This document shows, piece after piece, positions 28,190-64,000 of a stretch of 64,000 bases of DNA; within the stretch, counting starts at the first letter, position 1; the number at the start of each line of letters is the position of its first letter. The notes beneath the pieces were generated by a model. That model searched no databases and was not told the DNA's origin. It saw only the letters and a program-made list of their open reading frames with translations. The position numbers and the translations under genes were made by a program. The DNA comes from Arcticibacter eurypsychrophilus (lineage in GTDB: Bacteria > Bacteroidota > Bacteroidia > Sphingobacteriales > Sphingobacteriaceae). Location: contig NZ_MDFN01000007.1 in NCBI RefSeq assembly GCF_001730525.1, forward strand, positions 1-64,000. Direction: 5' to 3'.

Positions 28190-28241
28190 GATAAGGAAGA
28201 TTTAAATTATAATGGGAAAACTAAATAATATTAAAAGGTAC

Positions 28242-29789: not shown

Positions 29790-29790
29790 G

Positions 29791-31359: not shown

Positions 31360-31400
31360 GGAAAAGATTAAAAGGATTAAGGAAAGATTAAACTAAATTA
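31334..31400 (+). repeat. Three tandem copies of the GH28 gene's 3' end
   Basis: TTAAGGAAAAGATTAAAA begins at 31334 (inside the gene, encoding KEKIK), again at 31356, and in a shortened form (TTAAGGAAAGATTAAA) at 31377. The periods are 22 and 21 bp. The whole 41-bp spacer before the GH95 gene consists of these copies. Confidence 0.85.
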
Positions 31401-34214: not shown

Positions 34215-34217
34215 AAT

Positions 34218-43231: not shown

Positions 43232-43912
43232 ATGAAAAAAATTGCTATAACAATCTCATTATGCTTATTTGGAGCTATATGGTTAATAAATCCTGTCTTT
43301 GCTCAACAGAAAACAGAAGAGAGCGAAGTTGTGTATACAAAAGTTATCACTCAAAGAGCTCATAAAATTGCCGTTAAATTAGATCTTACAGATACTTTAA
43401 AAGTAAATAAGGCGACTGCCATCATTGCTGATCAATACCGCCAGTTAGGTATCATTCATGATCTTCGCAACGATCAAGTAAAGGCTTTAAAAAAGGACAG
43501 TACGCTAAGTAAGGAAGTAGTCGCAGCAAAAGTGACAGAACTTGAAAAAATAGCTGACCTTAAACTTAAAAAGCAACATGCTATTTACCTGTCTAAATTA
43601 GCGAAAGTGCTTAATAAGGAACAAATTGGCAAGGTAAAAGATGGTATGACTTTCGGAGTTTTACCAGCAACCTACAAAGGGTATGTGGAAATGTTACCTA
43701 TGCTTACTGAAAAACAAAAAGTGCAGATTTTAGCCTATCTAACTGAGGCTCGGGAATTGGCAATAGATGCCGAGTCAGCTGAAAAGAAACATGCCACATT
43801 TGGTAAGTATAAAGGAAGAATAAACAATTACCTCTCTGCCGAAGGTGTAGAAACAAAGAAAGCCAGGGAAATTTGGGAACAGAAGTTAAAGGAACGTCAG
43901 GCAAAAGGTTAA
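43232..43912 (+). CDS. DUF3826 family secreted protein
   Basis: The product is 226 residues with a signal peptide of about 25 residues (ending NPVFAQ). The rest is charged and helical. The family landmarks are FGVLPATYKGYVEMLPMLTE (about 140-159), LTEARELAIDAESAEKKH and FGKYKGRINNYLSAEG near the end. DUF3826 proteins recur in pectin utilisation loci of Bacteroidota, but their function is unknown. It is probably co-transcribed with the isomerase-like gene. Its helical, lyase-free sequence suggests a chaperone, binding or envelope role rather than an enzyme, but this is a guess. Confidence 0.8.
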   Translation: MKKIAITISLCLFGAIWLINPVFAQQKTEESEVVYTKVITQRAHKIAVKLDLTDTLKVNKATAIIADQYRQLGIIHDLRNDQVKALKKDSTLSKEVVAAKVTELEKIADLKLKKQHAIYLSKLAKVLNKEQIGKVKDGMTFGVLPATYKGYVEMLPMLTEKQKVQILAYLTEARELAIDAESAEKKHATFGKYKGRINNYLSAEGVETKKAREIWEQKLKERQAKG

Positions 43913-47200: not shown

Positions 47201-47546
47201 TAGAGCTTTTCAAAGTTTGCCTAATATCTGGGGAGATATTTATGACCCTGAACTTAATCCAACTGGTACTATGCCAAACCCTAACTGGCAAGATATTAGT
47301 CTTACGCCAGCTTCCAATTTCTGGAAAGTTAGTTCTTTTAGAATGCGTATGACTAACTTCAACGTCAACTATACAATTCCTAAAAAAGTAGTGGATTATT
47401 TAAAGGTAAGCAATGCACGTGTGTATTTCACAGGATTAAATCCAATGAATTTGTACAATCCATATTCTTATAGGGATTCAGACACAGCGTATGACGTGTT
47501 TCCAAATCTAAGAACATATTCTTTTGGTATTAACTTAACACTTTAA
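44280..47546 (+). CDS. SusC/RagA-family TonB-dependent outer-membrane transporter
   Basis: The product is 1088 residues. After a signal sequence (about 1-37) comes a carboxypeptidase-regulatory-like domain (INITGTVKDAKGEPLVGVTV, about 57-76), then the plug with the SusC signature LDEVVVVGYGTQRKATLTGA (about 133-152), and a 22-stranded barrel ending in the aromatic-rich tail TYSFGINLTL. SusC forms the outer-membrane channel that takes up oligosaccharides with energy from TonB. There is no N-terminal STN domain, so signalling to an anti-sigma factor is unlikely, in keeping with AraC-type control. SusD follows after 38 bp. Confidence 0.95.
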   Translation: MNLLLQASICRTKVLTVILICLFVLPGSVNTVFAANPAMVISGGKSVAARINITGTVKDAKGEPLVGVTVRIKGTKSGTSTDVNGVYRLNLPVGNETLVFTYVGFLTKEVVAKGISMDVRLEESSSNLDEVVVVGYGTQRKATLTGAISTINMSAIEDLPVSNLGAALAGRILGVGVSGGVARPGSAAKITVRNPNTYFGKDGGSTEPLFVIDDIVQIGGNGQPDATLFNNLDPSEIESISVLKDASAAIYGSRAGNGVVLVKTKRGKEGKPRISYSGSYAINDEAYRTKMMSAYEFGQYYNIMNGPNGADAKPGVNNFFSQDELDHFKTIDNNWLTDAWSPAFNTRHTLSMSGGAERATYFGDVSYFKQDGNLNSLDFNRWNFRAGSDVNVAANLKVGLQVSGNNSDLTKTFNKIGGENEENDYRNLLLTPRYIPMYIDGLPVKIPGTTNDLSMYHFYEIQKLGNLAQTDSKTFTVNLYAEYNIPFVKGLKAKASYGSNNSSSRGSQIGTKYTLYEFNRLGENQHIYEGATLATSKPISASNGNRLYYANTTAESYQTNFLLNYNRQFGKHNVSGLFTVEKSESETNQESVYRESPFLTTNGQFATASGDVVGATSAAESGSLSYIGRANYSYADKYLAEILFRTDASTKFAPENYWGKFYSGSLGWVLSEEDFFKVEGIDFLKLRYSFGLLGNDQTKPWLWRQRYTYQDGKGAVFGGNTNTTTGMKMEASPSPDAHWTTEFKNNVGLDAQFLRSRLSATMEGYYNKASEILIERTGNVPVTVGGSVASENYGKADYYGLELELGWNDKIGNDFRYGVSTRYSFTDNKVIQMNFNDTDIMYPWNAQPNHSNDNGMWGYDNLGMFKSQAEIDTYVSENNIISVFETPAAQLKPGMLYYSDVRGALQSDGSFAGKDGIINDNDQIKLSNRKDNHHGYSLTLKAGYKGLNIDCVIGGSFGGWSEIDARKKLNNSIARAFQSLPNIWGDIYDPELNPTGTMPNPNWQDISLTPASNFWKVSSFRMRMTNFNVNYTIPKKVVDYLKVSNARVYFTGLNPMNLYNPYSYRDSDTAYDVFPNLRTYSFGINLTL

Positions 47547-47584
47547 TTTCCAAGGTTATATATTTTATAAAAGATAAATCAGAT

Positions 47585-49624
47585 ATGAAAAATAATAAAA
47601 TAATTTTGGCACTAGCAGCATTGTTTATTGTGCTTGCTGGTTGTAATGATGATTTCCTAGCCGAAAAACGAGATTTAGCCGGTGTCAATGAGGAGGTATT
47701 TACGGAGCCTATTCTCGCAACTGCTTATGTAGATTATATTTATGGTATGTTTCTTCCTGCGAATAATGCACAAGCACCTACCTGGAACCTAGCGACTAAT
47801 AGCGACGATTTTACTAAGACTACTGAAGAGCTTGGAGGTCAAACGAATTGGAATAAAGAATGGGCAAATGTTTCTTATTTGAATAGTCACGCACTTTCCT
47901 ACTTTGGAGGAAAATTAACCGGTAGTGTATCGAATACACCTTATACAAGGATTAAGGAAATTAATCTTTTCCTTACTAATGTCGATAAGTATGGAATGGC
48001 TGACAATATCAAAAAACCACTTAAAGGTCAGTTATATTTCTGGAGAGCTTGGCAGTATTTTGACTTGGTCAGATTGTATGGAGGAGTTCCATTAGTATTA
48101 ATGCCTCAAGACCCCATTATTTCCGATGATGGAGAAACTGAAGTACAAAGAAGTAGCACTTCTTTATCTATTGAGCAAATTTGTGCCGATTTGGATACTG
48201 CTATCAGTCTTTTACCTGGAAAGTATGCAAGTACTACCGATTGGGGTAGGATTACAAGTGGTGCAGCTGCTGCTTTAAAAGGCCGTGTGTTATTAACATG
48301 GGCAAGTCCGCTATTTAATCGTTCTGATGATGTTACACGTTGGAAAAGAGCATATGATGCTAACTTGGCCGCAAAGACTTTATTGGAAGCAAATGGTTTT
48401 GGTCTATTTACAACCGGAGGAACTGCAAAGGGTGTAGCTTGGGGAAACATGTGGTTTACTGAAGGAGGTAATCCAGAAGCGGTTTTAAGCTATGGTTTCA
48501 ATAACTCAACTACTGGTAACGTGCAAAAAAATAGCGGATGGGAGCAAGCAGTGAGATCAAAGACATTAGCAGGTGGAGGTTCAATATCTCCCACTAAACA
48601 AATGGTTGATGCATTCCCAATGAAAGACGGTAAAATGGCCGGAGCTTCAAAATATCAATACGATCCACAGGTTTTCTTCAAAGACAGAGATCCCCGTTTC
48701 TATAAAACGTTTGTTTATAACGGCGCTTTATGGCCTTATGCTGGATTAGCAACATATAGACAATGGACTTATAAATGGTATACGCCTGCAGATTTGGCAA
48801 CCAAAGTAGATTTGAAAGTACCTACAGCCAGTACAGAAATAGCAGGGGCTAATTCAACAGGTATTTACTTATGTAAAGCTACAAGTCCTAGCGCCAATAA
48901 CACCCTTGATGGATTTAAGTACAGTGGTACAGATTTTATGGAACTGCGTTTTGCTGAAGTCGTGTTAAACTTGGCTGAAAGTGCGATTGGTATCAATAAT
49001 CTTACTGAAGGATTAGCAGGTATTGCATCAATCAGACAACGTGCGGGCATTGAAAACCTGGATGGTAGCTATGGATTAAGTGCTGCTGTATCTCGTGATC
49101 AGTTATTTGTTGCGGTATTAAATGAAAGAAAAATTGAGTTTGCTTATGAAGGAAAACGTTTCTTTGATTTACGTCGCTGGATGTTATTTGATGCGACAAG
49201 TCCTGTTGCTATTCGTTTAGGATTACAAAATGAAACCCTGAATGGAACTCGTAGAACTGGGTATTTTATAACAGTTAAAAAGGCTGACGGAACTAATTAT
49301 TCTGCGGCTGCAGGAGCGGCTAAAGATCCTATGCTTAAAACTGCAACAGCAGCTGCGCCTGTTATCGATCGTGAACCTGCAGTTCTTCCAACTGGTTTCA
49401 CTAATTTTGATGGATACTTGGAGTATTTATATAAAAATCACTTTACCATTACGGTAAAGGATGACATAGATCCTACCAGTCCCGCTAACTGGAAGTTCAA
49501 ATGGTATGATCAATATTATTTCTTTGGATTTAATCAAAGTATATTGAGTGGATCTCCGTATCTGGAACAAACACAAGGATGGGATAGCTTAACCGGAAAG
49601 AATTCTTTCGACCCATTATTATAA
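47585..49624 (+). CDS. SusD/RagB-family surface glycan-binding lipoprotein
   Basis: The product is 679 residues. The lipobox LAGC places the lipidated Cys near residue 20, followed by NDDFLAEKRD. TPR-like helices include KGQLYFWRAWQYFDLVRLYG (about 146-165) and GAAAALKGRVLLTWASPLFN, and the C-terminus has NERKIEFAYEGKRFFDLRRW, all standard SusD signatures. It forms the lid of the SusC channel on the cell surface and binds the glycan. It is longer than most SusD proteins (about 500-600). Together with SusC this defines the locus as a polysaccharide utilisation locus. Confidence 0.95.
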   Translation: MKNNKIILALAALFIVLAGCNDDFLAEKRDLAGVNEEVFTEPILATAYVDYIYGMFLPANNAQAPTWNLATNSDDFTKTTEELGGQTNWNKEWANVSYLNSHALSYFGGKLTGSVSNTPYTRIKEINLFLTNVDKYGMADNIKKPLKGQLYFWRAWQYFDLVRLYGGVPLVLMPQDPIISDDGETEVQRSSTSLSIEQICADLDTAISLLPGKYASTTDWGRITSGAAAALKGRVLLTWASPLFNRSDDVTRWKRAYDANLAAKTLLEANGFGLFTTGGTAKGVAWGNMWFTEGGNPEAVLSYGFNNSTTGNVQKNSGWEQAVRSKTLAGGGSISPTKQMVDAFPMKDGKMAGASKYQYDPQVFFKDRDPRFYKTFVYNGALWPYAGLATYRQWTYKWYTPADLATKVDLKVPTASTEIAGANSTGIYLCKATSPSANNTLDGFKYSGTDFMELRFAEVVLNLAESAIGINNLTEGLAGIASIRQRAGIENLDGSYGLSAAVSRDQLFVAVLNERKIEFAYEGKRFFDLRRWMLFDATSPVAIRLGLQNETLNGTRRTGYFITVKKADGTNYSAAAGAAKDPMLKTATAAAPVIDREPAVLPTGFTNFDGYLEYLYKNHFTITVKDDIDPTSPANWKFKWYDQYYFFGFNQSILSGSPYLEQTQGWDSLTGKNSFDPLL

Positions 49625-50117: not shown

Positions 50118-51770
50118 ATGAAAAGAAGATTTTTAATTATGACATTGATGTTGGGCATCATGCATGCAGCATCAGCACAGTATCCTGATATTCCTCAGGA
50201 TGTTCAAAAAGCTACAAGTGACATGATGGAAGCGGCACGCAAGCAATCTGATATTGCCTGGCTGAAAGCAGTTCCAATCATTGAAAAAGAAGCAAAAGAA
50301 GGCAAACCTTATGTTCCATTTGCTGGCCGTCCTACCGATCTTCCTCAATCTGAAATTATTGCTTTTCCAGGTGCTGAAGGTGGTGGTGCGTACTCTTTTG
50401 GTGGTCGCGGTGGTAAAGTTATCGTGGTAACCAGTCTGGCCGACAATGGTCCGGGTTCTTTGCGCGAAGCCTGTGAAATGGGTGGCGCACGTACCGTTGT
50501 ATTTAACGTTTCTGGTATTATCCGCATCAAAACACCTTTAGTGATCCGTGCGCCTTACATTACCATTGCAGGTCAGTCTGCTCCTGGTGATGGCGTTTGT
50601 GTTGCCGGAGAATCCGTATGGATCAATACCCATGACGTGATCGTTCGCTTTATGCGTTTCCGTCGTGGCGAAACTTATGTTGGCCGCAGGGATGATGCTA
50701 TCGGAGGAAATCCAATTGGAAACATCATGATTGACCACGTTTCTGCAAGTTGGGGACTGGATGAGAATATGTCCATGTACCGCCATATGTATAATGACAG
50801 TACAGGTAAGGCAGAGATTAAACTGGGAACGGTTAATATTACGATTCAAAACTCAATCTTCTCTGAAGCCCTTGATACCTGGAACCATGCGTTCGGAAGT
50901 ACACTGGGTGGAGAAAATTGTGCCTTCACACGTAATTTGTGGGCTGATAATGCTGGACGTAATCCTTCTATCGGATGGAACGGTATTTTCAACTTTACCA
51001 ATAACGTGGTCTTTAACTGGGTAAACCGCTCTACGGATGGTGGCGATTATACTGCGTTGTATAATATTATTAATAATTACTACAAACCTGGACCCCTAAC
51101 AAATCTGAATGAGCCGATCAGTTACCGGATTTTAAAACCAGAGGCTGGAAGAAGCAAGCTACCTTATGTGGTTTTTGGACGGGCACATGTTGAAGGTAAC
51201 ATCGTAGAGGGCAATAAGAAAGTAACCGCTGATAACTGGGATGGTGGTATTCAAATAGAAAACAAAAAGGGTGACCTGATGACTTACGAGCAATCACAAC
51301 CGTATTTTGCTGCTATGCGCGTAAACAAACCTTTTCCAATGCCTGCCGTTACAATTATCCCTGCACAGGATGCTTATTCTTATGTGCTGGCTAATGCAGG
51401 TGCCACTTTACCGAAAAGAGACCCTGTTGACGTACGTATTGTAAAACAGGTTACCACAGGTAAGATTGATTATCTGCCGAATGTTAAATTACCTGATACA
51501 AACTTTAAGCATCGCAGACTGCCAATAGATTCATATAAAGGTGGAATCATAACTGACATCAGTCAGGTTGGTGGATACCCGGTTTACAAGGGATCTCCCT
51601 ATGTTGATGCGGATCATGATGGTCTTCCTGATGCTTGGGAAAAGAAGAATGGTTTAGATCCTAAAGATCCTTCTGATTCTGGTAAATATGGGAAAGACGG
51701 ATATACTAATATCGAAGGGTATTTAAACAGCCTGGTAAATGTACAGAATGTATGTCCTGGAAAAGGATAA
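50118..51770 (+). CDS. Secreted PL1-family pectate lyase (second copy)
   Basis: The product is 550 residues with a signal peptide ending AASAQ. About 60 extra helical residues precede the lyase domain, which begins IIAFPGAEGGGAYSFGGRGG (about 77-96). It has the MIDHVSASWGLDENMS motif, the NAGRNPSIGWNG region with the probable catalytic Arg, and a C-terminal Ca2+-binding repeat DADHDGLPDAWEKKNGLDPK. It cleaves pectate by beta-elimination, and is related to but clearly distinct from the lyase at 16.3 kb. It is a single-gene unit between operator E and a terminator. Confidence 0.92.
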   Translation: MKRRFLIMTLMLGIMHAASAQYPDIPQDVQKATSDMMEAARKQSDIAWLKAVPIIEKEAKEGKPYVPFAGRPTDLPQSEIIAFPGAEGGGAYSFGGRGGKVIVVTSLADNGPGSLREACEMGGARTVVFNVSGIIRIKTPLVIRAPYITIAGQSAPGDGVCVAGESVWINTHDVIVRFMRFRRGETYVGRRDDAIGGNPIGNIMIDHVSASWGLDENMSMYRHMYNDSTGKAEIKLGTVNITIQNSIFSEALDTWNHAFGSTLGGENCAFTRNLWADNAGRNPSIGWNGIFNFTNNVVFNWVNRSTDGGDYTALYNIINNYYKPGPLTNLNEPISYRILKPEAGRSKLPYVVFGRAHVEGNIVEGNKKVTADNWDGGIQIENKKGDLMTYEQSQPYFAAMRVNKPFPMPAVTIIPAQDAYSYVLANAGATLPKRDPVDVRIVKQVTTGKIDYLPNVKLPDTNFKHRRLPIDSYKGGIITDISQVGGYPVYKGSPYVDADHDGLPDAWEKKNGLDPKDPSDSGKYGKDGYTNIEGYLNSLVNVQNVCPGKG

Positions 51771-51997: not shown

Positions 51998-52234
51998 ATG
52001 AAAGTAACTGTAGAAATCAGATATGAGCAATTGCTTGCAGCTATCAAGAAGTTGCCTGCTGCAAAGATTAAACAATTAAGATTAGTATTGGATGATGCCC
52101 TTATTTATGAAAAAGCATCAGAAGATCTTTCAGACTTTCAAAGCTTTTTATTGAAAGGGCCAGTTATGAAAGAAGAACAATATAAACAGTACCAGGCTGA
52201 TAGGAAATATTTTAATCAATGGAGAACGAAATAG
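51998..52234 (+). CDS. Antitoxin-like protein of a VapBC-type module
   Basis: The product is 78 residues, starting MKVTVEIRYEQLLAAIKKLP, with a helical body and a basic C-terminal tail (QYKQYQADRKYFNQWRTK). The C-terminal part is of the kind that folds into the active site of a PIN toxin. It overlaps the toxin gene by 16 bp, as is usual for such pairs. No classical AbrB or ribbon-helix-helix motif is evident, so the DNA-binding mode is unclear. Assignment rests mainly on context. Confidence 0.7.
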   Translation: MKVTVEIRYEQLLAAIKKLPAAKIKQLRLVLDDALIYEKASEDLSDFQSFLLKGPVMKEEQYKQYQADRKYFNQWRTK

Positions 52235-52608
52235 TCTGTTTGGATACCTCCATACTAATTGATTTTTACAGAAAGAAGGTGAAAGAAAAAAGTGTTTTCT
52301 TTCAGTTAACTAAAAAATATAAGATTTTTGCTATTTCAGTAGTAACTGAGTATGAAATATTGGTAGGAGCAGATCAACTACAAACTGAATTCTGGCAGGA
52401 ATTTCTTGAACGGGTGACTGTCCTTCCATTTGATAAAATAGCAAGCCACGCAGCTATTGCTATCGCGAAAAATCTTAAAGAAAGAAATAAGCTGATACAG
52501 ATTCCTGATATTTTTATTGGTGCAACTGCTCTTTCCAGAAATATGAAAATTGCTACTCTAAATAAAAAACACTTTGAACTGATTCTTGATCTAGTATTAG
52601 TTAACTAA
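52219..52608 (+). CDS. PIN-domain ribonuclease toxin (VapC-like)
   Basis: The product is 129 residues with the PIN acidic residues in place: Asp9 in VCLDTSILIDFY, Glu in ISVVTEYEILVGA (near 45) and Asp in IPDIFIGATAL (near 97), closing with ATLNKKHFELI, where Asn stands in the fourth position as in many VapC. It probably cleaves tRNA or other structured RNA and is neutralised by the upstream protein. The module sits between two pectin-locus transcription units and has no metabolic link with them. Confidence 0.9.
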   Translation: MENEIVCLDTSILIDFYRKKVKEKSVFFQLTKKYKIFAISVVTEYEILVGADQLQTEFWQEFLERVTVLPFDKIASHAAIAIAKNLKERNKLIQIPDIFIGATALSRNMKIATLNKKHFELILDLVLVN

Positions 52609-53224: not shown

Positions 53225-56200
53225 ATGAATGATTTAGACCATTATTACAAACGCGTGCTGACAGGCTTCATGGTCTGTTTTGTAGCACTTCCTTTTTCAT
53301 ATGCGCAAAAGGGAAAACCTAAACCTGTGCTTCCGATTTCCTTTATAGATGGCAAACTTTACTATTCTCCTGATACATTAGGTAACCGGATTCCTGATTT
53401 TTCTTATGCTGGTTATATGGCTGGGGAAACAGCAATCCCTGATGTATCGATCAAGGTGGTGGTACCTGTTAAAAAGGGCGATGCCACCCTGAGGATTCAG
53501 GCAGCTCTTGATTATGTAGCATCTTTGCCTGCCGATAAACAGGGTGCAAAGGGTGTGGTATTGCTGCAAAAGGGAACTTATACGGTTAATGGTTTTTTAA
53601 AGATGAAAACTTCCGGAGTTGTCTTACGCGGAAGTGGAATGAATGAAGCGGGTACCATTTTGTTGGGAGCTGGTAAAACCAGGGAAACGTTGATTAAAAT
53701 TGAGGGGATCAATAACAGAACGGAAGCTGATGCTGTAAAATTGGCGGATGTATATCATCCTGTAAATACGAAGGAATTGATCTTATCTGGTAAAGCCAAC
53801 TTCAAGGTGGGTCAGAAGATAATTATTCATCGGCCTTCTACAGCAAACTGGATCAATGTTCTAGGTACGCATCATTTTGGTGGTGGTCTTACTACGCTGG
53901 GATGGAAACCGGGTGACCGCGATCTGGAATGGGATAGAACGATTACTGCTGTGAATGGAAATAAAATCAGTATCGATGTACCACTAACGACTGCATTGGA
54001 TCCCTTATTTGGTGGGGGTACGGTTTCTGCTTATACCTGGACAGGAAGGATCATTCAGCTGGGAATAGAAAATATACTTCTTCGTTCGGAATACGACAGT
54101 ACGAATAAAAAAGATGAAGATCATCGCTGGATGGCTATTTCCCTCGATCATGTAACTGATAGTTGGGTTAGGCAGGTGCGCTTTGAGCATTTTGCCGGTT
54201 CTGCAGTATTGGTGCTTGCGGGCGGAAAACGAATTACAGTAGAAGATTGTAAATCGTTGAATCCTATTTCTGAAATTGGGGGACAGCGTCGTTATACTTT
54301 TTATACCATGGGACAGCAGACCTTATTTCAACGGTGTTATGCTGAAGATGGATATCATGATTTTGCGGTTGGGTATTGTGCCACTGGTCCTAATGTATTT
54401 GTGCAGTGCGAATCACATCTGCCATACAGCTTCAGTGGAGCGATAGATAGCTGGGCATCGGGAATCTTGTTTGATATTGTGAATGTGGATGGGCAGGCTT
54501 TGTCCTATGCTAATCGGGGACAGGATGCACAGGGTGCGGGATGGTCTGCTGCCAATAGTGTATTTTGGCAGTGTTCGGCTGCGATGATGGATTGTTCTGC
54601 TCCGCCAACTGCGAATAACTGGGCTTTGGGCTCATGGGCGCAGTTTAAAGGGGATGGTTACTGGGATCAATCCAATGAACAAATTAATCCCCGAAGCTTG
54701 TATTATCAGCAATTAACAGAGCGGATAGGGGAAAGCGTAAAGTTGCGAACTTTCTTATTGCTGGACCCTGGTTCTGCATCAAGTAGTCCTAGTATTGAAG
54801 TAGCAGCTGAACTAACTGCAGCATCAGTTTCTGCTGCTCCTCAACTGGTTGATTTGATTGATCGGGCAGCTGAGCGAAATGCTCTTGCTGTATCCGCTAA
54901 AGGTGTTAAAACTATTGATGAGATTGGGGTTAAACCTGCAGCACCTGTAAGTCTGGCTCCATCCATGCATGTTGAAAATGGCTGGCTGGTGAGGGGTAAC
55001 GAAGTTTTAACGGGAGCAAGGCATGATGTCCCTTGGTGGAGAGGTACTTTGCAGCCTAAAGATTTGAAGGCTTCTGAGCCTGCAGTCACTCGTTATGTAC
55101 CTGGAAGGACTGGCTTGGGACTGACTGATGATTTGAATGATGTGACCGATTGGATGAAGAAGGGTCATATTGTTTCCCTTGAACATAACTATGGTTTATG
55201 GTATGAACGCCGTCGTGATGATCATGAACGGATACGACGGATGGATGCAGACGTGTGGCCTCCTTTTTATGAGCAGCCATTTGCACGGAGTGGAGAAGGC
55301 AAGGCTTGGGATAACCTGAGTAAATATGATCTGACTAAATATAACGGATTTTATTGGAGTCGCCTGAAGCATTTTGCTGACTTAGCTGATCAAAAGGGAT
55401 TGGTGTTGGTTCACAAGAATTATTTCCAGCACAATATCATTGAGGCCGGTGCTCATTATGCTGACTTTCCATGGAGAACGGCTAATAATATTAATAATCC
55501 GGGGTTCCCTGAACCACCTAATTATGCGGGTGACAAGCGGATCTTTATGGCTGAGCAGTTTTATGACATCACTAATCCGACCAGAAGAGCCTTGCATCGT
55601 GCTTACATCCGCCAGTGTCTCTCTAATTTCAAAGGCAACAATGGGGTGATTCAATTGATAGGAGAAGAATTTACAGGTCCTCTGCATTTTGTTCAGTTCT
55701 GGATAGATGTGATCAAGGAGTGGGAACAGGAAAATAATAAGAAAGTAATTATTGGTTTAAGTACCACTAAAGACGTTCAGGATGCAATTTTGACGGATAA
55801 GTCAAGGGCATCAGTTATTGATTTGATTGATATCCGTTATTGGTATTACCAGGCGGATGGGTCAGCTTATGCTCCTGCAGGTGGCCAGAACCTAGCACCA
55901 AGACAACAGGCTCGTCTGTTTAAACCTAAAAAAACATCGTTTGAGCAGGTGTATAGGGCCGTTTCAGCGTATAAAGTAGCTTATCCGGATAAGGCAGTAA
56001 TGTATTCGGGGGATAATTACGATAGCTTTGGCTGGGCTTCCTTTATGGCGGGAGGTTCTATTGCCCAATTACCGGTTGGTTTGGATCCTCATTTTCTTCA
56101 GGATGCTTCAGCAATGAAACCAGTTAAAGGGTTATCTAACGGGAATTATATGTTGTCAGGAAATCAAAAGTTTATTATCTACAGCACAGCTGATCAAGCT

Positions 56201-56365
56201 ATTTCCCTTGATTTGAGTGCTTATAAAGGCCGGTTTAAAACGGTGTGGATTAATCCTAAAGATGGAACGATCCTGAAAAAAGGATTAACTGTAACTGCTG
56301 GAAAATCAGTAGAAATTAATAAAGTAATGGCAGGAGATGCCATTTTATTGGTAAGCCCATTTTAG
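53225..56365 (+). CDS. Secreted beta-helix (pectate-lyase-like) protein fused to a DUF6298-like domain
   Basis: The product is 1046 residues with a signal peptide ending FSYAQ. The first 510 residues form a right-handed beta-helix: GVVLLQKGTYTVNGFLKMKT, GVVLRGSGMNEAGTILLG, WMAISLDHVTDSWVRQVRFE and RYTFYTMGQQTLFQRCYAED. An Ala/Ser-rich linker spans about 515-580. The second half (about 590-1046) is barrel-like, with WWRGTLQPKDL, HNYGLWYERRRDDHERIRRM and IQLIGEEFTGPLHFVQFW, whose acidic and Arg/Trp residues suggest an active site. It heads the last operon of the locus and is the least characterised large protein here. A two-step enzyme for a branched pectin structure is inferred. Confidence 0.7.
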   Translation: MNDLDHYYKRVLTGFMVCFVALPFSYAQKGKPKPVLPISFIDGKLYYSPDTLGNRIPDFSYAGYMAGETAIPDVSIKVVVPVKKGDATLRIQAALDYVASLPADKQGAKGVVLLQKGTYTVNGFLKMKTSGVVLRGSGMNEAGTILLGAGKTRETLIKIEGINNRTEADAVKLADVYHPVNTKELILSGKANFKVGQKIIIHRPSTANWINVLGTHHFGGGLTTLGWKPGDRDLEWDRTITAVNGNKISIDVPLTTALDPLFGGGTVSAYTWTGRIIQLGIENILLRSEYDSTNKKDEDHRWMAISLDHVTDSWVRQVRFEHFAGSAVLVLAGGKRITVEDCKSLNPISEIGGQRRYTFYTMGQQTLFQRCYAEDGYHDFAVGYCATGPNVFVQCESHLPYSFSGAIDSWASGILFDIVNVDGQALSYANRGQDAQGAGWSAANSVFWQCSAAMMDCSAPPTANNWALGSWAQFKGDGYWDQSNEQINPRSLYYQQLTERIGESVKLRTFLLLDPGSASSSPSIEVAAELTAASVSAAPQLVDLIDRAAERNALAVSAKGVKTIDEIGVKPAAPVSLAPSMHVENGWLVRGNEVLTGARHDVPWWRGTLQPKDLKASEPAVTRYVPGRTGLGLTDDLNDVTDWMKKGHIVSLEHNYGLWYERRRDDHERIRRMDADVWPPFYEQPFARSGEGKAWDNLSKYDLTKYNGFYWSRLKHFADLADQKGLVLVHKNYFQHNIIEAGAHYADFPWRTANNINNPGFPEPPNYAGDKRIFMAEQFYDITNPTRRALHRAYIRQCLSNFKGNNGVIQLIGEEFTGPLHFVQFWIDVIKEWEQENNKKVIIGLSTTKDVQDAILTDKSRASVIDLIDIRYWYYQADGSAYAPAGGQNLAPRQQARLFKPKKTSFEQVYRAVSAYKVAYPDKAVMYSGDNYDSFGWASFMAGGSIAQLPVGLDPHFLQDASAMKPVKGLSNGNYMLSGNQKFIIYSTADQAISLDLSAYKGRFKTVWINPKDGTILKKGLTVTAGKSVEINKVMAGDAILLVSPF

Positions 56366-56389
56366 TACAAACATTATAAATTGCAATCA

Positions 56390-57787
56390 ATGCGTCATAT
56401 AATTTATTTATCTTTTTTAGTATTATCGGTTGTTGCTTCCTGCAACATAGAAAAAAAGGAAATGCGGGAAACGGGACCTTTAAAGGTTTCTGAAAATGGC
56501 AGGTATCTGTTGAAGGAAAATGGTGATCCTTTTTTCTGGCTAGGGGATACCGGTTGGCTTTTGTTTGGTAAGCTTAATCGCGAAGAGGCTGATAAATACC
56601 TGGAAGACCGGAGTAAAAAGGGGTTTAATGTGATCCAGGTAATGGTTTTACATGGTGTAGGGGTGATGAATTTCTATGGTGACTCTGCATTGATCAATCA
56701 TGATGTTTCAAAACCTAATGTCACTAAAGGAAATGCGATTGCTGATTCTACTCAATATGATTATTGGGATCATGTAGATTATATCGTTGATAAGGCTGCT
56801 GAAAAGGGCTTGTATATGGCACTTGTTCCTATTTGGGGATCTGATGTAAAAGGGGGTAATGTTTCAGTTGAACAAGCAGCCACCTATACTAAATTCTTAA
56901 CGGAACGCTATAAAAATCGTCCCAACGTCATCTGGATGAACGGTGGGGATATTAAAGGAAGTGATTCATTGGCGGTATGGCAGACCATAGGAAATGGATT
57001 GAGAAAGGGTGATCCAAATCATCTGATTACTTTTCATCCAAGGGGACGTACTTCTTCTACGGAATGGTTTCACAACGAGAAATGGCTGGATTTTAATATG
57101 TTTCAATCCGGTCACCGTCGTTATGATCAGGATACAACAGCAAAGGAGAAAAATCATTATGGAGAAGATAACTGGAAACATGTTCAGTATGATTATGCGT
57201 TAAAACCTGCAAAACCAACTATTGATGGTGAGCCGTCTTATGAAGGGATTCCTCAGGGATTGCATGATACTACAGAGGTGCGGTGGACAGATAGTGATGT
57301 GCGCAGGTATGGTTACTGGTCGGTTTTTGCAGGTGCTTTCGGGTATACCTACGGACAGAATTCAGTGATGCAGATGCATACTGCAAAAGATGTTGGCAGT
57401 GCGTATGGCTCTCACCAGCTATGGGATGATGCTATTAATGAACCGGGTGCCGGACAGATGGTACATCTGAAAACGTTGATGCTTTCAAAACCTTTCTTGG
57501 AACGGGTGCCTGATCAATCTATTCTTGCTGAAAATGGAGATAAGTATAACTACCAGGTAGCTACCAGAGGTGCGGAATATGCATTTATATATACCTATAA
57601 TGGCCGGAATATAAAGGTTCATATGGGCAAAATTGCCGGCGATAAGGTGAAAGCCAGCTGGTTTAATCCAAGAGATGGAAAAACTACAGCAATTGCTGAG
57701 TTTCCGAATACAGGTACCCATGAGTTTGATCCACCGGCAGACATTAAAAATGGTAATGACTGGGTATTGGTTTTAGAGAAAGCATAA
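56390..57787 (+). CDS. GH140-like apiosidase lipoprotein
   Basis: The product is 465 residues from the ATG at 56390; the upstream TTG at 56381 is not needed. The signal ends SVVASC, a lipobox. The barrel starts LKENGDPFFWLGDTGWLLFG, and the candidate catalytic residues are Asp near 187 in WMNGGDIKGS and Glu near 280 in TIDGEPSYEG, the positions expected for GH140. GH140 enzymes remove D-apiose-linked side chains from rhamnogalacturonan II. A small C-terminal beta-sandwich (FIYTYNGRNIKVHMGK onward) closes the protein. It lies 24 bp after the fusion gene. Confidence 0.88.
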   Translation: MRHIIYLSFLVLSVVASCNIEKKEMRETGPLKVSENGRYLLKENGDPFFWLGDTGWLLFGKLNREEADKYLEDRSKKGFNVIQVMVLHGVGVMNFYGDSALINHDVSKPNVTKGNAIADSTQYDYWDHVDYIVDKAAEKGLYMALVPIWGSDVKGGNVSVEQAATYTKFLTERYKNRPNVIWMNGGDIKGSDSLAVWQTIGNGLRKGDPNHLITFHPRGRTSSTEWFHNEKWLDFNMFQSGHRRYDQDTTAKEKNHYGEDNWKHVQYDYALKPAKPTIDGEPSYEGIPQGLHDTTEVRWTDSDVRRYGYWSVFAGAFGYTYGQNSVMQMHTAKDVGSAYGSHQLWDDAINEPGAGQMVHLKTLMLSKPFLERVPDQSILAENGDKYNYQVATRGAEYAFIYTYNGRNIKVHMGKIAGDKVKASWFNPRDGKTTAIAEFPNTGTHEFDPPADIKNGNDWVLVLEKA

Positions 57788-57796
57788 TCAATAGCT

Positions 57797-58702
57797 ATGA
57801 AGCGTTACCTGTTTATCCTGTTCTCTTTATTGCTTTTTGGTTCCTGCTCTGAAAGCGCGTACGTGTTTACCTCATTTCATGAGCCTGCAAATGAAGGTCT
57901 CCGGATGTTGTACAGCATGGACGGCTATAAATGGAATGACTTTAACCGGGTTTTTATGAAACCAGAGATAGGGGAACAGAAGATTATGCGCGATCCGTCT
58001 ATGGCTCAAGGTCCGGATGGAACTTTTCATCTGGTTTGGACAACGGGATGGAGGGGGACAAAGGGATTTGGTTATTCCAGTTCAAAGGATCTGATTCACT
58101 GGTCAGCACAACAATCTATTGAGGTGATGCAAAATGAACCTACAACGGTGAATGTATGGGCACCGGAAGTATTTTATGACGATGAAACGAGTCAGTTCAT
58201 CATCATCTGGGCTTCTACTATTCCTTTTCGTTATCCAAAAGGAGAGGAGGAAGAGAACAATAATCACCGGATGTATTATGTGACTACGAAAGACTTTAAG
58301 GTGTTTTCGGATAAAAAGTTATTTATGGATCCGGGCTTTAGTGTGATCGATGCGGTTATTGTGAAGATTAATAAAGGGAAATATGCCCTGGTTTTAAAAG
58401 ATAATACGCGTAAGAACCGTAATATGAAAATCGCTTTTTCTGATCATGCTATTGGGCCTTATACTAATGTAAGTGCTGCATTTACAGATAACCTCACGGA
58501 AGGTCCCAGTGTGGTCAAGGTTAAGCACAAATGGCTGGTCTACTATGATGCCTATGGGGAGAAGAAATATCTGGCTAAGGCAACAACTGATTTTAAATCT
58601 TTTCAGGATGTGCGTGTTGAAGTTCAATTACCTGAAGGACATAAACATGGAACCATAGTAAAGGTTCCTAAAAAGCTGATTCGGAATATTTTAAATAAAT
58701 AA
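57797..58702 (+). CDS. GH43-like five-bladed beta-propeller lipoprotein
   Basis: The product is 301 residues with lipobox LFGSC. Family landmarks are the first acidic residue in KIMRDPSMAQGPDGTFHLVW (about 62-81), the second in NVWAPEVFYDDETSQF (the WAPE motif) and the third near VIDAVIVKI. The domain is short for GH43, without an accessory sandwich. It would act as an exo-hydrolase on arabinose- or galactose-type side chains at the cell surface or in the periplasm. Spacing to GH140 is 9 bp. Confidence 0.8.
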   Translation: MKRYLFILFSLLLFGSCSESAYVFTSFHEPANEGLRMLYSMDGYKWNDFNRVFMKPEIGEQKIMRDPSMAQGPDGTFHLVWTTGWRGTKGFGYSSSKDLIHWSAQQSIEVMQNEPTTVNVWAPEVFYDDETSQFIIIWASTIPFRYPKGEEEENNNHRMYYVTTKDFKVFSDKKLFMDPGFSVIDAVIVKINKGKYALVLKDNTRKNRNMKIAFSDHAIGPYTNVSAAFTDNLTEGPSVVKVKHKWLVYYDAYGEKKYLAKATTDFKSFQDVRVEVQLPEGHKHGTIVKVPKKLIRNILNK

Positions 58703-58753
58703 TGCTATTAAGATTACCAGGGCAAAGTTTTTTGTCCTTTATTGAATTTTGTT

Positions 58754-60613
58754 ATGAATAGGGTGCCAAGAAATTATAAAACTGCTTTAGCTGCATTCGT
58801 TGTGGTTTTAACTGCCGGAGTATCTTCAGCAATTGCGCAGGATACAGTACGGTATACAGGAACGACGCTTTCAAATGTGGATTATCATCATGGTCAGTTG
58901 AGTCCGGCGATGGGAGTTCATAATATTCAGATATTACGGGCTAACCGGGAGCAGCCTGATGAGTCAAACGGGAATGGCTGGACGTATAATCATGCTCCAA
59001 TGATTGCTTACTGGAACAATACTTTTTATCTGCATTATCTGAGTAATCCAGTTGGGGAACATGTTCCACCGGGTCAGACTTTATTGAAGACCTCTAAAGA
59101 TGGGTATAGCTGGACCAAACCAGTCATTTTGTTTCCGCCGTATAAAGTTCCTGATGGTTTTAAGAAAGAAGGAAGAGAAGGAGTTTCGAAAAATCTAATG
59201 GCAGTGATGCACCAGCGGATGGGGTTTTTTGTTTCAAAGAAACAACGCTTGCTTACTTTGGCCTATTATGGGGTTGCAATGGATGCTAAAGATGATCCTA
59301 ATGATGGAAAAGGTATTGGCAGGGCAGTAAGGGAGATTCATAAGGATGGAAGTTTTGGTCCGATTTACTTTATCCGCAATAATTCGAGCTGGGATCAGAA
59401 GAAATCTACTTACCCTTTCTACACAAAAAGTAAGGATAAGGGCTTTGTTGCGGCTTGTAATGAGTTGTTAGCTAATCCATTAATGATGCAGCAGTGGGTG
59501 GAAGAGGCAGATAGGAATGATGCACTTATTCCGATCAAGAAGGCCTATAAGGCTTTTAGTTATTACCATTTGCCGGATGGACGTGTAGTTGGTTTATGGA
59601 AACATGCATTAACAACCACTATAACAGAAGGTAAGCCATGGCCTCAAAGTGCATCGAGAGCACCCGGCTTTGTGAATAGTAATGCAAAGATCTGGGGACA
59701 GCGTACCTCTGATGGAAAATATGCCACTGTATATAATCCTTCGGAATACCGTTGGCCACTTGCACTTTCAGTGAGTACAAATGGATTGGAGTATACTAAT
59801 CTTTTGCTTGTAAATGGGGAGGTTTCGCCCATGCGTTACGGAGGGAATTATAAATCTTATGGTCCTCAATATATAAGAGGAATACTGGAAGGTAACGGAG
59901 TTCCTCCTGATCATAATATGTGGTTGGCCTACAGTATGAATAAAGAAGATATCTGGGTTTGTAAAATTCCTGTTCCTATCGTGGACAAAGCGCCTCAACA
60001 GGCAAATGATATCTTTAACAACCTTCCTGATCAAAAGGAGCTGGTTTTATGGAACACATTCAGTCCTTTGTGGGCTCCAGTACAGGTGCAAAAAGAGGCA
60101 GATGGAGTTAAATACCTTTTGTTGAAAGATAAGGACCCTTACGATTATGCCAAGGCAGAAAGAATGATTCCTGCGACTAAAAAGTTGTTGGCAGAGTTTG
60201 ATATTACAGCTGGACAGAATAGTTATGGACGTTTGGATGTTGAGTTTCAGGACAAAAAGGGTACTCCATTTGCAAGACTTACCTTTGATTCGACAGGACA
60301 AGCAATTTTCAAAGCAGGTGCGCGGGATAAGGGTATCATGAAGTATGAGGCTGGTAAAAAGTATACATTTCAGGTTACGTTGAACACAGAGAACAGGGCA
60401 TGTACCATAAACGTGAATGGCAAGGATGTCGTAAATGGGATTGCATTTTCGCCAGTTGCAGTGATTGAAAGGGTTGTTTTTCGTACAGGTGGAGTGCGTC
60501 GTTTTCCTGATATTGATACTCCTGCAGACCAGACTTACGATTTACCGCAGGCTGGAATACCTGTTACAGAAGCGAAATATCAGATTAGCTTCTTAAAAAC
60601 TAAAGCCTTATGA
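58754..60613 (+). CDS. Secreted beta-propeller hydrolase, possibly GH143-like
   Basis: The product is 619 residues from the ATG at 58754 (in-frame TTG at 58742 upstream). The signal peptide ends VSSAIAQ. Blades carry NGWTYNHAPMIAYWNNTFYL, LLKTSKDGYSWTKPVILFPP and YHLPDGRVVGLWKHAL, and the C-terminal 170 residues form a concanavalin-like sandwich (FDITAGQNSYGRLDVEFQDK). The plan resembles sialidase-type propellers and the GH143 hydrolases that release Dha from rhamnogalacturonan II, which would suit the aldolase in this locus. The fold is likely; the GH143 label is tentative. It overlaps the next gene by 4 bp. Confidence 0.6.
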   Translation: MNRVPRNYKTALAAFVVVLTAGVSSAIAQDTVRYTGTTLSNVDYHHGQLSPAMGVHNIQILRANREQPDESNGNGWTYNHAPMIAYWNNTFYLHYLSNPVGEHVPPGQTLLKTSKDGYSWTKPVILFPPYKVPDGFKKEGREGVSKNLMAVMHQRMGFFVSKKQRLLTLAYYGVAMDAKDDPNDGKGIGRAVREIHKDGSFGPIYFIRNNSSWDQKKSTYPFYTKSKDKGFVAACNELLANPLMMQQWVEEADRNDALIPIKKAYKAFSYYHLPDGRVVGLWKHALTTTITEGKPWPQSASRAPGFVNSNAKIWGQRTSDGKYATVYNPSEYRWPLALSVSTNGLEYTNLLLVNGEVSPMRYGGNYKSYGPQYIRGILEGNGVPPDHNMWLAYSMNKEDIWVCKIPVPIVDKAPQQANDIFNNLPDQKELVLWNTFSPLWAPVQVQKEADGVKYLLLKDKDPYDYAKAERMIPATKKLLAEFDITAGQNSYGRLDVEFQDKKGTPFARLTFDSTGQAIFKAGARDKGIMKYEAGKKYTFQVTLNTENRACTINVNGKDVVNGIAFSPVAVIERVVFRTGGVRRFPDIDTPADQTYDLPQAGIPVTEAKYQISFLKTKAL

Positions 60614-62037
60614 GATTAAAATATATAGCTCTTGCTGTGTTGATGACTGGCTTCAGCCAATTGAAAGCTGAAGTGGTATTACCAAGTGTGTTGGGCCACA
60701 GTATGATTCTTCAGCGGGAACAACCTGTTCCGGTATGGGGAACGGCGGCAGCGGGAGAGATGATTCGTATTCAGTTTGCCCAACAGGTTAAAGAAACACA
60801 GACTGATGGCAATGGGAAATGGAAAGTACTTCTTGATCCGATGGAAGCATCAGCTCAGCCTCAGGATTTAACTATTGCGGGTACGAATACGATTGTATTG
60901 AAAAATATTCTGATAGGGGAAGTTTGGCTATGTTCAGGACAATCCAATATGGAATATGCCATGAGGAAGAACAGTAAATTAACGAAGCCTTATAGTGGTG
61001 TGAATCCGGTTGATGAATTGGAGTATGCAGATAATGATCAGATCAGGATTTTCCTGGTAAATAGAAAAGAGTTAATTAAACCTCAAGCTGATCATGGGGG
61101 CTGGAATGTGGCCAGTGGTTCAGCTTTACGATCTTTTTCAGCAGCAGGGTATTTCTTTGCAAAGGAGTTAAATAAACGATTGCAGGTTCCGGTAGGTATG
61201 ATTTCATCTGCTATACCTGGGAGCAGGATAGAGCCATGGATGCCTTTGGCTGTTGCGCCTACATTGGATGGCGAACCAGGAAAGTTTTATACGCCTATGA
61301 TAGAGCCCTTACTGCCTTTTGCGGTGAAAGGTTTTTTATGGTATCAGGGTGAAACGAGCGTTTTTTTAAATGATTCCAGTCAGTATACCGCGAAAATGAA
61401 GTTATTGATTGATAGTTGGAGGAAGGCATGGAATTCTCCTGATTTGCCCTTTTACTATGTACAACTTGCTCCTTTTTATTATTCAAAAAGTGGTGGGGAG
61501 ATTAAGCTGAACAGAGAGTCGTTGCCTAAAATGTGGGAAGCGCAGGAACAGGCGCTATCTATTCCGCATACAGGGATGATGGTGAGTACGGATTTGGTTT
61601 CCGATCTGAATGGTATACATCCAGGATTTAAATGGGAAATCGGCAGACGTCTTGCTTTGCTTGCGTTGCGAGATACTTATCATGTAAAGGTAGTGGCAAA
61701 TGGCCCGGTTTATCAAGGCATGAAGCAGGTTGCTAATAAAATGCAGCTTTCATTTAAGTCTGTAGGAGCGGGACTTTACAGTAAAGACGGTCAAAAGTTA
61801 AGATGTTTTACTATTGCAGGTGCTGATGGCAAGTTTGTTCCGGCAGATGCTGTGATTAAAAACAATAAAGTTTTGGTATCGGCTTCTTCGGTTAAGAAAC
61901 CTGTTGCGGTACGGTTTGCCTGGACTGAGGATTCGCAGTCCAATTTCTTTAACCGGGATGGCTTACCAGCTGCACCATTCCGGACGGACAGACCGGCTTT
62001 TTTAAAGTCCAATCAAGATTTATACACGATAAAATAG
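60610..62037 (+). CDS. Sialate-O-acetylesterase-like SGNH hydrolase
   Basis: The product is 475 residues with a signal peptide ending LKAE. The catalytic Ser is in WLCSGQSNMEYAM (near 111), the oxyanion Gly/Asn residues follow, and His lies in LNGIHPGFKWEIG (near 338). The domain is interrupted and followed by beta-sandwich parts, as usual for the SASA group. In pectin loci such enzymes remove acetyl groups from sugars so that glycosidases can act. Its start ATGA overlaps the previous stop, which indicates translational coupling. Confidence 0.9.
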   Translation: MRLKYIALAVLMTGFSQLKAEVVLPSVLGHSMILQREQPVPVWGTAAAGEMIRIQFAQQVKETQTDGNGKWKVLLDPMEASAQPQDLTIAGTNTIVLKNILIGEVWLCSGQSNMEYAMRKNSKLTKPYSGVNPVDELEYADNDQIRIFLVNRKELIKPQADHGGWNVASGSALRSFSAAGYFFAKELNKRLQVPVGMISSAIPGSRIEPWMPLAVAPTLDGEPGKFYTPMIEPLLPFAVKGFLWYQGETSVFLNDSSQYTAKMKLLIDSWRKAWNSPDLPFYYVQLAPFYYSKSGGEIKLNRESLPKMWEAQEQALSIPHTGMMVSTDLVSDLNGIHPGFKWEIGRRLALLALRDTYHVKVVANGPVYQGMKQVANKMQLSFKSVGAGLYSKDGQKLRCFTIAGADGKFVPADAVIKNNKVLVSASSVKKPVAVRFAWTEDSQSNFFNRDGLPAAPFRTDRPAFLKSNQDLYTIK

Positions 62038-62038
62038 A

Positions 62039-64000
62039 ATGAAATTGATTCGTACGCACATTATATTAGTTTGCCTTTTTCTATACGCAGGCATTACCCT
62101 TCAGGCACAGGAGACGCAGCAGCTTTTTCTTTCCGGTACGGGGAGTGATCATACTGTAAATTGGCAATTCTATGTTACCGGAGGAATGCAAGCAGGCAAG
62201 TGGGCCAGCATTGCTGTTCCATCCAACTGGGAACTGCAGGGATTTGGTAAATACGACTACGGATTTTCAAAAGATAGCTTGCGGGGAAAGGAACAAGGTC
62301 TGTATAAATATACGTTTCGGGTTGCTGATCAGTGGAAAGGTAAGAAGGTGAATATTGTGTTTGAAGGATCCATGACGGATACGGAAGTAAAGGTAAATGG
62401 TAAATTGGCCGGACCAATTCATCAGGGATCGTTTTATTCATTTAAGTATGATGTTTCCAAACTGGTTAAATATGGTGCTGATAATGTGCTGGAAGTTAAG
62501 GTTTCGAAGCATTCTGCAAATAAGTCAGTTAACTCAGCAGAGCGTGAAGCTGATTTCTGGCTCTTTGGTGGAATCTTTCGTCCGGTATTTTTAGAAGCGT
62601 TACCACAGAATCGTATAGAGAGGGTGTCTATTGACGCTCAGGCAGATGGAACTTTTAAAGCGCTTGTTCGCACTATGGGGAATGCGGATCATTTAGAGGT
62701 TTCTCTGTTTACTGCTGATGGTCGTTCTTTTGGTGAGGCAGTTAAAGATCGCTTGAATAAGAAAAATGGTTCTGTGCTATTAAATGGAGCTTTTAAATCT
62801 CCGGATTTATGGTCTTCAGAATTCCCTAACCTATATAAAGCGGTGTTTACGCTGTATCAAAAGGGTAAAATTGTACATACGGTGTCTCAGAAGTTTGGTT
62901 TTCGTACCGTTGTTGTCAAACTAAGGGATGGGATGTACGTGAACGGGGCTAAGATTAAGTTTAAAGGGGTGAACCGGCATTCTTTCTCGCCTGAGTCAGG
63001 ACGTACAACCAATAAAGATTTAAGTATTAGTGATGTGCTTCTCATGAAGGAGATGAATATGAATGCGGTCAGGATGTCTCATTATCCTCCGGATGGTCAT
63101 TTCCTGGATGTATGCGATTCGTTAGGACTGTATGTGATGGATGAACTGGCTGGCTGGCACGGTACTTATGATACACCTACAGGTTCAAAATTGCTAGAGG
63201 AAATGATTGTTCATGATGAGAATCATCCTTCCATCGTGTTTTGGGCGAATGGTAATGAAGGGGGACATAATTTGGATCTCGATACATTATTCAGACAGTT
63301 TGATTTTCAAAAAAGACCTATTATTCATCCTTGGCAGCTGTTTGATGGTTTTGAAACGCAGCATTACAGGGAATATGATTACGGAATCGGTAATTATATG
63401 CATGGGCATGAGATTGTGATGCCTACAGAATTTCTACATGGAATGTATGATGGGGGACATGGCGCAGGTCTGGAGGACTATTGGAGAGAAATGTGGCGGA
63501 ATCCTTTATCTGCAGGTGGATTTTTATGGGACTTTGCTGATCAGGGTGTTGTACGGACGGATAAAAATGATAGTATTGATACGGACGGTAATCATGCTTC
63601 GGATGGTATTGTTGGTCCGCATCATGAAAAAGAAGGTAGCTTCTTTGCGATAAAAGAAATTTGGAGTCCTGTATATATCGAACACAGGGAAATAGCAGCT
63701 GGCTTTGATGGCACGTTTCAAGTGGAAAACCGCTATTCATTTGCCAATTTAAATCAGGTTGGGTTTACATGGAAACTGACTAAACTAAAGGGTCTCCAGG
63801 TTTTGGAAGACAAATCAGTTACTGGTATCTCTGTATCTCCAGATTTGAAACCGCTGGAAAAGGGAAGTATTCAGGTTCCTCTGCCTGCAGACTGGAAAGA
63901 GTATGACGTTTTATATGTTACAGCAACCGGATTAGATAAAAAAGAAATTTTTACATGGAGCTTTCCAATTACTCGTCCTGCTCAAACTGCCCTGAAGATG
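62039..64000 (+). CDS. GH2 beta-glycosidase (partial, runs off the window)
   Basis: The frame is open for 654 codons from the ATG at 62039 to the last base. A signal peptide ends GITLQAQ. The sugar-binding sandwich starts NWQFYVTGGMQAGKWASIAV, and the barrel has acid/base Glu near 406 in WANGNEGGHN and nucleophile Glu near 463 in MPTEFLHGMYD. SAGGFLWDFADQGVV is the usual loop after the nucleophile. It is the second GH2 in the locus and differs in length and loops from the first. It follows the esterase after 1 bp, so the operon continues beyond the window. Confidence 0.92.
   Translation, partial: MKLIRTHIILVCLFLYAGITLQAQETQQLFLSGTGSDHTVNWQFYVTGGMQAGKWASIAVPSNWELQGFGKYDYGFSKDSLRGKEQGLYKYTFRVADQWKGKKVNIVFEGSMTDTEVKVNGKLAGPIHQGSFYSFKYDVSKLVKYGADNVLEVKVSKHSANKSVNSAEREADFWLFGGIFRPVFLEALPQNRIERVSIDAQADGTFKALVRTMGNADHLEVSLFTADGRSFGEAVKDRLNKKNGSVLLNGAFKSPDLWSSEFPNLYKAVFTLYQKGKIVHTVSQKFGFRTVVVKLRDGMYVNGAKIKFKGVNRHSFSPESGRTTNKDLSISDVLLMKEMNMNAVRMSHYPPDGHFLDVCDSLGLYVMDELAGWHGTYDTPTGSKLLEEMIVHDENHPSIVFWANGNEGGHNLDLDTLFRQFDFQKRPIIHPWQLFDGFETQHYREYDYGIGNYMHGHEIVMPTEFLHGMYDGGHGAGLEDYWREMWRNPLSAGGFLWDFADQGVVRTDKNDSIDTDGNHASDGIVGPHHEKEGSFFAIKEIWSPVYIEHREIAAGFDGTFQVENRYSFANLNQVGFTWKLTKLKGLQVLEDKSVTGISVSPDLKPLEKGSIQVPLPADWKEYDVLYVTATGLDKKEIFTWSFPITRPAQTALKM

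Follow-up and report, generated by a model that had tools for sequence, protein, structure and literature searches.

A conserved fusion of a beta-helix with a DUF6298 barrel, probably a two-part pectin enzyme, in Arcticibacter eurypsychrophilus

The fusion gene and its surroundings

The stretch of DNA analysed here (the window) comprises 64,000 nucleotides of Arcticibacter eurypsychrophilus contig NZ_MDFN01000007.1 and carries, at 53225-56365 of the forward strand, a single ATG-started open frame for a protein of 1046 amino acids in which a beta-helix is followed by an Ala/Ser-rich connector and by a C-terminal half that is the Pfam family DUF6298 (PF19815). Only 15 bases separate this frame from that of a GH140 apiosidase (56381-57787; Pfam and sequence match), which is followed on the same strand by genes for a relative of GH43-like arabinosidases (57797-58702; Pfam), a homologue of the N-terminal part of BT_1020, which we take to be a GH143 enzyme (58742-60613; Pfam and sequence match), a SASA-type esterase, presumably of family CE20 (60610-62037; Pfam), and a GH2 enzyme that is cut by the window end (62039-64000; Pfam). 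Upstream, also on the forward strand, are genes for a DUF3826 protein (43232-43912), a SusC/SusD-like pair recognized by eye, with homologous genes so named in Rufibacter (44280-49624), and a pectate-lyase-like protein that resembles PelZ, albeit far below the cut-off of that model, and has a solved relative, 9buj (50118-51770). The lyase gene lies 1.45 kb upstream of the DUF6298 gene, with a VapC/PIN-domain toxin gene and its small upstream partner (51998-52608) in between. The window thus holds the combination by which we recognize an RG-II locus, namely, apiosidase and BT_1020-type genes together with a SusC/D pair, the latter assigned by eye. A second glycan-degrading block, with MGH1-like, GH28, GH95 and malectin-domain GH2 genes, is found at 28212-37733.

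The PF19815 match spans residues 478-964 and all 487 profile positions (832.3 bits, E 1.7e-250; gathering score 28.1 bits) and begins before the helix module has ended, which shows that the Pfam and domain borders do not coincide. In the AlphaFold2 model of the whole protein (52-row alignment; mean pLDDT 86, pTM 0.85), the beta-helix occupies residues ~76-486, and a barrel with a beta-sandwich occupies residues ~590-1046. A first-pass annotation, made from the letters alone, had described a beta-helix joined to a DUF6298-like domain by an Ala/Ser-rich linker at about residues 515-580, and both the fusion and the linker are borne out: Ala and Ser make up 25 of the 66 residues at 515-580 (38%, vs 16% in the whole protein), and the richest 66-residue windows begin at 515-517. 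The same annotation saw no known family in the C-terminal half, which holds for its function but not for its family, PF19815 itself.

The layout, as delimited by the model and by conservation, begins with a likely Sec signal peptide (~residues 1-27, 53225-53305), called by eye and seen as an N-terminal helix in the model; no lipobox Cys was seen after it by eye, and the protein is likely to be secreted, presumably into the periplasm. There follow a right-handed beta-helix module with a DUF4955-like end (residues 76-500, 53450-54724), the connector (residues 501-580, 54725-54964), the DUF6298 (beta/alpha) barrel (54965-56116) and a C-terminal beta-sandwich (56117-56362). The connector is poorly conserved and Ala/Ser-rich, but it is not plainly disordered, with helices predicted by AlphaFold2 at 524-533 and 541-551. 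The sandwich, likewise poorly conserved, has a sub-threshold match to Collagen_bind_2, a domain that the GH140 neighbor also carries. In blocks of 25 residues, conservation is 0.49-0.81 in the helix (76-500), 0.42-0.56 at 501-600, 0.64-0.89 in the barrel (601-950) and 0.41-0.47 in the terminal sandwich. Across the window's protein and 51 relatives, picked to span helix and barrel, mean column identity is 59%, which indicates conservation of both halves beyond chance. Model confidence drops below 50 at 657-670, 749-752 and 767-769, within invariant loops.

Spread of the fusion and its usual neighbors

Among 296 genomes from the window's phylum (Bacteroidota, by the window's relatives), 20 have PF19815 matches at E 0.001. 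The 15 strong matches (at least 767 bits, the window's own included) all lie in frames of 1035-1083 amino acids, and the remaining nine are weak (20-33 bits) and lie in frames of 480-524 amino acids. A profile of the barrel matches 18 of these genomes, in the 15 fused frames and in four weak matches (E 1.6e-8 or worse). The helix profile reaches 41 genomes: besides the 15 fused frames and some weaker matches, it hits 23 unfused frames at E 2.3e-67 or better, which are spread over 19 genomes and include one from the genome of the window itself. A scan with exact peptide patterns, which is biased to close relatives, found 83 relatives, of which 80 were kept, among them a planctomycete MAG (L080); helix and barrel share one frame in 78 of the 80, so that the fusion is a stable architecture. 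The two exceptions are L102, which ends at a contig end, and the copy of Spirosoma telluris (L099, 9944-13137), split into frames of 431 and 730 amino acids by a frameshift or a sequencing error; another copy, L082, is a single frame that lacks the terminal sandwich. Seven plasmid records match, two over the full length (Rufibacter and Bacteroides finegoldii) and five over the helix part only (three Streptomyces, Paenibacillus and Flammeovirga), and the helix-only matches in Streptomyces and Paenibacillus indicate that the helix occurs outside Bacteroidota. Among the matches listed for 14 control genomes, the sole one is in Bacteroides ihuae. As far as the literature was searched, we found no paper naming DUF6298 or DUF4955, and the titles and abstract starts in literature listings held nothing on the DUF6298 family.

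A tree built from 34 helices has all 24 fused helices on one side of a branch that is present in 90% of the bootstrap trees and has support of 91/90, below the 95/80 level that we mark with a star. This topology fits a single fusion event, without proving it. Pairwise identities of the two halves correlate, with a Pearson coefficient of 0.88 for 1326 pairs and of 0.74 once the three most divergent rows are removed, although common descent alone would be expected to give such a correlation.

The first-pass annotation placed the gene at the head of an apiosidase operon. It does directly precede the GH140 gene, but the apiosidase is not its most constant partner: a pectate-lyase-like gene is present in 73 of the 80 loci vs 55 with GH140. 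By best match, the 80 loci contain, besides those 73, SusC-like genes in 63, GH143-like in 61, GH43-like in 55, GH140 in 54, GH2 in 46, DUF3826 in 45 and SASA esterase genes in 34 (with every match counted, GH140 rises to 55 and GH43-like to 56); all these counts are lower bounds, many loci being cut by contig ends or by the 10-kb flank. The lyase gene, the commonest neighbor, is immediately upstream of the DUF6298 gene in 68 of the 80. Immediately downstream, a GH140-bearing frame is found in 54, if one includes L089; in the breakdown by neighbor, in which L089 is placed under GH143-like, the counts are GH140 53, GH143-like 8, MGH1-like 5, esterase 4, GH43-like 1, unknown 4 and none within 600 bp 5. 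The case of L089 (Chitinophaga japonensis) is a single frame of 1411 amino acids, from 12820, directly after DUF6298, that unites GH140, GH43-like and GH143-like parts, and this natural triple fusion supports the view that the parts work together on a single substrate. Among the 14 other strong loci of the 296-genome set, the lyase adjoins DUF6298 in 13 and GH140 does so in 11. Two lyase genes occur in the locus in 27 of the 80 relatives and in 10 of the 14 other strong loci.

From these observations we infer that the lyase and DUF6298 genes are the usual core of the locus. Genome G238 and the B. finegoldii plasmid have the two together, with no GH140 or annotated SusC/D gene in the stretch, and the Spirosoma and Larkinella loci have lyase, DUF6298 and GH143-like genes and lack GH140; in the Dyadobacter and Hymenobacter loci, neither GH140 nor GH143-like genes were found within the stretch. 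What counts against such a core is the VapC-type module between the two genes in the window, along with the seven of 80 loci in which no lyase gene was found (L056, L080, L088 and L091-L094), which include the closest relative, L056, and three rumen-type Bacteroidales. A point against a lyase role of the fusion itself is that genes of the GH88 type, expected beside a lyase, are found in only two of the 80 loci, though the window's genome has six other frames with GH88-family matches.

Several side observations concern these genes. The pair of B. finegoldii 'plasmid 78' (L148, 16252-21060) shares its stretch with a MobV relaxase gene, and no SusC/D gene is annotated within 39 kb in the incomplete gene table. 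At 9319-10998 of L169 (G000, contig C44) there is another lyase gene, which shares 86% identity with that at 50118-51770 and has no other obvious RG-II-type gene as a neighbor. The second lyase of a relative has its closest copy in the window's genome at 64%.

The two modules and their candidate active sites

Comparison of the predicted halves with known folds, the check proposed with the first-pass annotation, places the helix among lyase and epimerase folds and the barrel with GH140; both the full-length model and a model of the C-terminal half alone were compared with the solved-structure sets 'pdb' and 'pdb_via'. For the helix, the fold match to the alginate epimerase/lyase 8jaz has Z 28.2 (rmsd 2.1, 265 aligned), and AlgE-type epimerase/lyases and a GH28 polygalacturonase, at Z 28.2 and 27.0, stand high among the matches listed. 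At Z 27-28, these matches could suggest that the helix acts as a hydrolase of epimerase-like or GH28-like type rather than as a lyase, but profile homology points to PL29/DUF4955, and having the beta-helix fold in common does not fix the mechanism, so we consider this reading very unlikely. Aligned by hhalign with eight PL29/DUF4955-type proteins, of which L105 exceeds the PL29 cut-off and the other seven, L106-L112, are relatives, the helix gives probability 99.8 and E 1.6e-27 over 410 columns; with L105 and L106 alone, which are closest to PL29, the values are 98.6 and 1.3e-15 over 264 columns. An earlier hhalign value (probability 100, E 5e-43) was discarded as inflated because one member of the set, L113, is an unfused helix of the same kind as the window's, with which it shares 38% identity. 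In the wider PL29/DUF4955-type set, DUF4955 passes its cut-off in three of the five proteins scanned. Sequence searches of solved structures gave no match at E 1 with the full protein, and the full-length and helix profiles matched only the helix start of 7chu.

The homology to PL29 (the BT3328 family) and DUF4955 proteins runs along the helix and includes the closing SL(Y/F)-x-x-QL motif. However, the window helix scores 35.8 bits with the NCBIfam PL29 model NF058554, far below the cut-off of 1100 bits, and the candidate catalytic positions hold other residues in the PL29-type proteins compared. His300 (54122-54124), predicted to be catalytic from the alignment of fused and unfused helices, and Arg356 of the Arg355-Arg356 pair (54287-54292), predicted from the alignment to serve in uronate binding or catalysis, are each present in 52 of 52 fused rows and invariant over 24 fused and eight unfused helices aligned, the latter being seven of the 23 unfused frames and one Paenibacillus record. 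A five-row PL29-type set has Gly, Pro or Tyr at the position of His300 and His at that of Arg356. This difference, combined with invariance within its own family, suggests a helix family that is related to PL29 but likely has an active site of its own. A further candidate, His378, was dropped, being Arg in three of the eight unfused helices. BT3328 itself acts on glycosaminoglycans (PMC6994673), whereas the window helix sits in a pectin-type locus.

One could imagine that only the barrel is an enzyme, to which the beta-helix, as a scaffold for binding or positioning, would present acidic pectin. In line with this, the helix appears not to retain the histidines of PL29, and part of the invariant barrel loops (~678-707) has confidence block means of 56-83 in the full-length model vs 32-52 in that of the C-terminal half alone, as would fit a shared site; the two models come from different alignments (52 vs 45 rows), and no comparable rise is seen at residues 658-677. 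Nevertheless, a mere scaffold of the barrel needs no solo existence, and the helix does exist unfused, in the 23 frames of 19 genomes, with His300 and Arg356 invariant in all eight unfused helices aligned, so a role confined to that of a scaffold appears doubtful. In six unfused-helix neighborhoods, where ten frames were scanned with Pfam and the others were compared to window genes only, GH28 adjoins the helix in three, in one of them along with GH88, and UxaC is close by in a fourth; in the neighborhoods of L137 and L138, no pectin gene was found among the few frames checked. The unfused helix of the window's genome (L135, 7350-9230) has GH28 and sulfatase genes next to it and a SusC-like gene not far away, and may belong to a locus for another uronate polysaccharide.

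For the C-terminal half alone, a predicted model (45-row alignment; pLDDT 77.6, pTM 0.75) has GH140 as the first match by both structure aligners among the matches listed, with a Foldseek E of 1.6e-13. Among the matches listed, the structure comparison gives 8t9w at Z 20.1 (3.4 A, 336 aligned) and BT_1012 (5msy) at Z 18.9, followed at 18.4 by 4qfu, which is related in sequence to the GH140 of the window, and by GH5 mannanases from 17.9 down, so that only 8t9w is clearly above these. The predicted likeness to GH140 thus lies in the fold, barrel and beta-sandwich together, whereas the DUF6298 protein has no match to the Pfam Apiosidase family (PF13204) at E 0.1 and lacks a conserved acid at strand beta-7. 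By hhalign, the barrel aligns with the neighboring GH140 set in the sandwich only (47 columns, probability 14.7), and a solved-structure search with its profile gave a sole match to an antibody chain (E 0.32). A bridge is provided by seven unfused barrels, which align with DUF6298 at 98.8% over 301 columns and with the GH140 end, sandwich included, at 96.1% over 134 columns.

These barrels belong to nine distant DUF6298-related proteins of ~490 amino acids with no helix in the frame (L016-L024; Pfam 20-33 bits). They have in common with the fused proteins Glu815 and 20 more positions, shared by all 23 fused rows and at least six of the seven unfused barrels aligned. Of the seven scanned with Pfam, two are narrowly over the cut-off and five below.

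The conserved acids expected of a barrel active site by the first-pass annotation, whose absence from the C-terminal half would have spoken against it, are indeed present. Glu815, after strand beta-4 (55667-55669), is found in 52 of 52 fused rows and in seven of seven unfused barrels, and Asp869, on strand beta-6 (55829-55831), is Asp in 51 of 52 fused rows (Asn in one) and Asp in five and Glu in two of the unfused barrels. Ten further acids do not vary among the 52 rows (Asp635, Asp665, Asp666, Asp696, Asp702, Glu740, Asp747, Glu763, Asp850 and Asp853), of which only Asp702 also occurs in all seven unfused barrels; a near-invariant loop rich in Arg, Asp and His, in part of low model confidence, spans residues 659-690 (55199-55294). 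GH-A enzymes keep the nucleophile after strand beta-7. In the fused rows, by strand order in the model and with no residue-level superposition, the acid position there is not conserved (Asp930 in 38 of 52, Asp933 in 33 of 52), and it has no counterpart in the seven unfused barrels, which might mean that the barrel is inactive or relies on a different pair. If it is a catalytically dead relative of GH140 that is used for binding, only the helix would be an enzyme, but the constancy of Glu815 in fused and unfused barrels, the retention of Asp or Glu at 869 in nearly all of them and a degree of conservation in the barrel that does not fall behind that of the helix (mean pairwise identity 0.65 vs 0.60) make this unlikely. 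A pair of carboxylates on strands 4 and 6 is known in other glycosidases, e.g., those of clan GH-D, and by analogy such a pair may operate in the DUF6298 barrel, with Glu815 and Asp869, predicted from the alignment, as the best catalytic carboxylate candidates.

A possible role in RG-II utilization

Both the apiosidase BT1012 and BT1017, an esterase with a DUF3826 module, have RG-II as their substrate (PMC7939467), which makes RG-II the likely substrate of the window locus; the GH140, GH143-like, GH43-like, esterase and DUF3826 genes around the fusion suggest the same. The fusion is probably a two-part pectin enzyme and, most likely, a periplasmic lyase/hydrolase. The best explanation, on which our confidence is evenly balanced, is that the RG-II utilization locus encodes a two-module enzyme that is secreted and probably resides in the periplasm. 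The earlier interpretation, that it may be a new enzyme pair for a branched pectin structure, is partly supported, and such a pair is plausible.

Conceivably, the neighboring lyase would open the chain first, after which the helix would cleave or grip the galacturonan backbone at branched sites, possibly by beta-elimination with His300, while Arg356 neutralizes the uronate. The barrel, with Glu815 and Asp869 as its carboxylate pair, might hydrolyse a linkage of that same oligosaccharide, either in a branch or between branch and backbone, and its invariant Arg/Asp/His loop would suit an acidic sugar. Tentatively, we propose that the protein is a bifunctional RG-II enzyme that acts as one unit behind a dedicated pectate lyase and could found two CAZyme families, one of lyases (or other backbone-acting enzymes) apart from PL29 and the other of glycosidases with a GH140-like fold and a beta-4/beta-6 carboxylate pair.

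The new assignments are those of the helix as a remote relative of PL29 that also occurs unfused and of the barrel as a fold like that of GH140 apiosidases without the beta-7 acid. That this fusion is conserved in pectin-type loci of Bacteroidota from soil, rumen and gut, and also occurs in one planctomycete record, points to an as yet unassigned step or alternative route, for whose study the protein offers named residues and two separable modules. We also considered that DUF6298 might be the missing Kdo hydrolase; however, sialidase-type BNR_2 genes are present in 17 of the 80 loci, 12 of which are without GH140, so DUF6298 is not needed for that role there.
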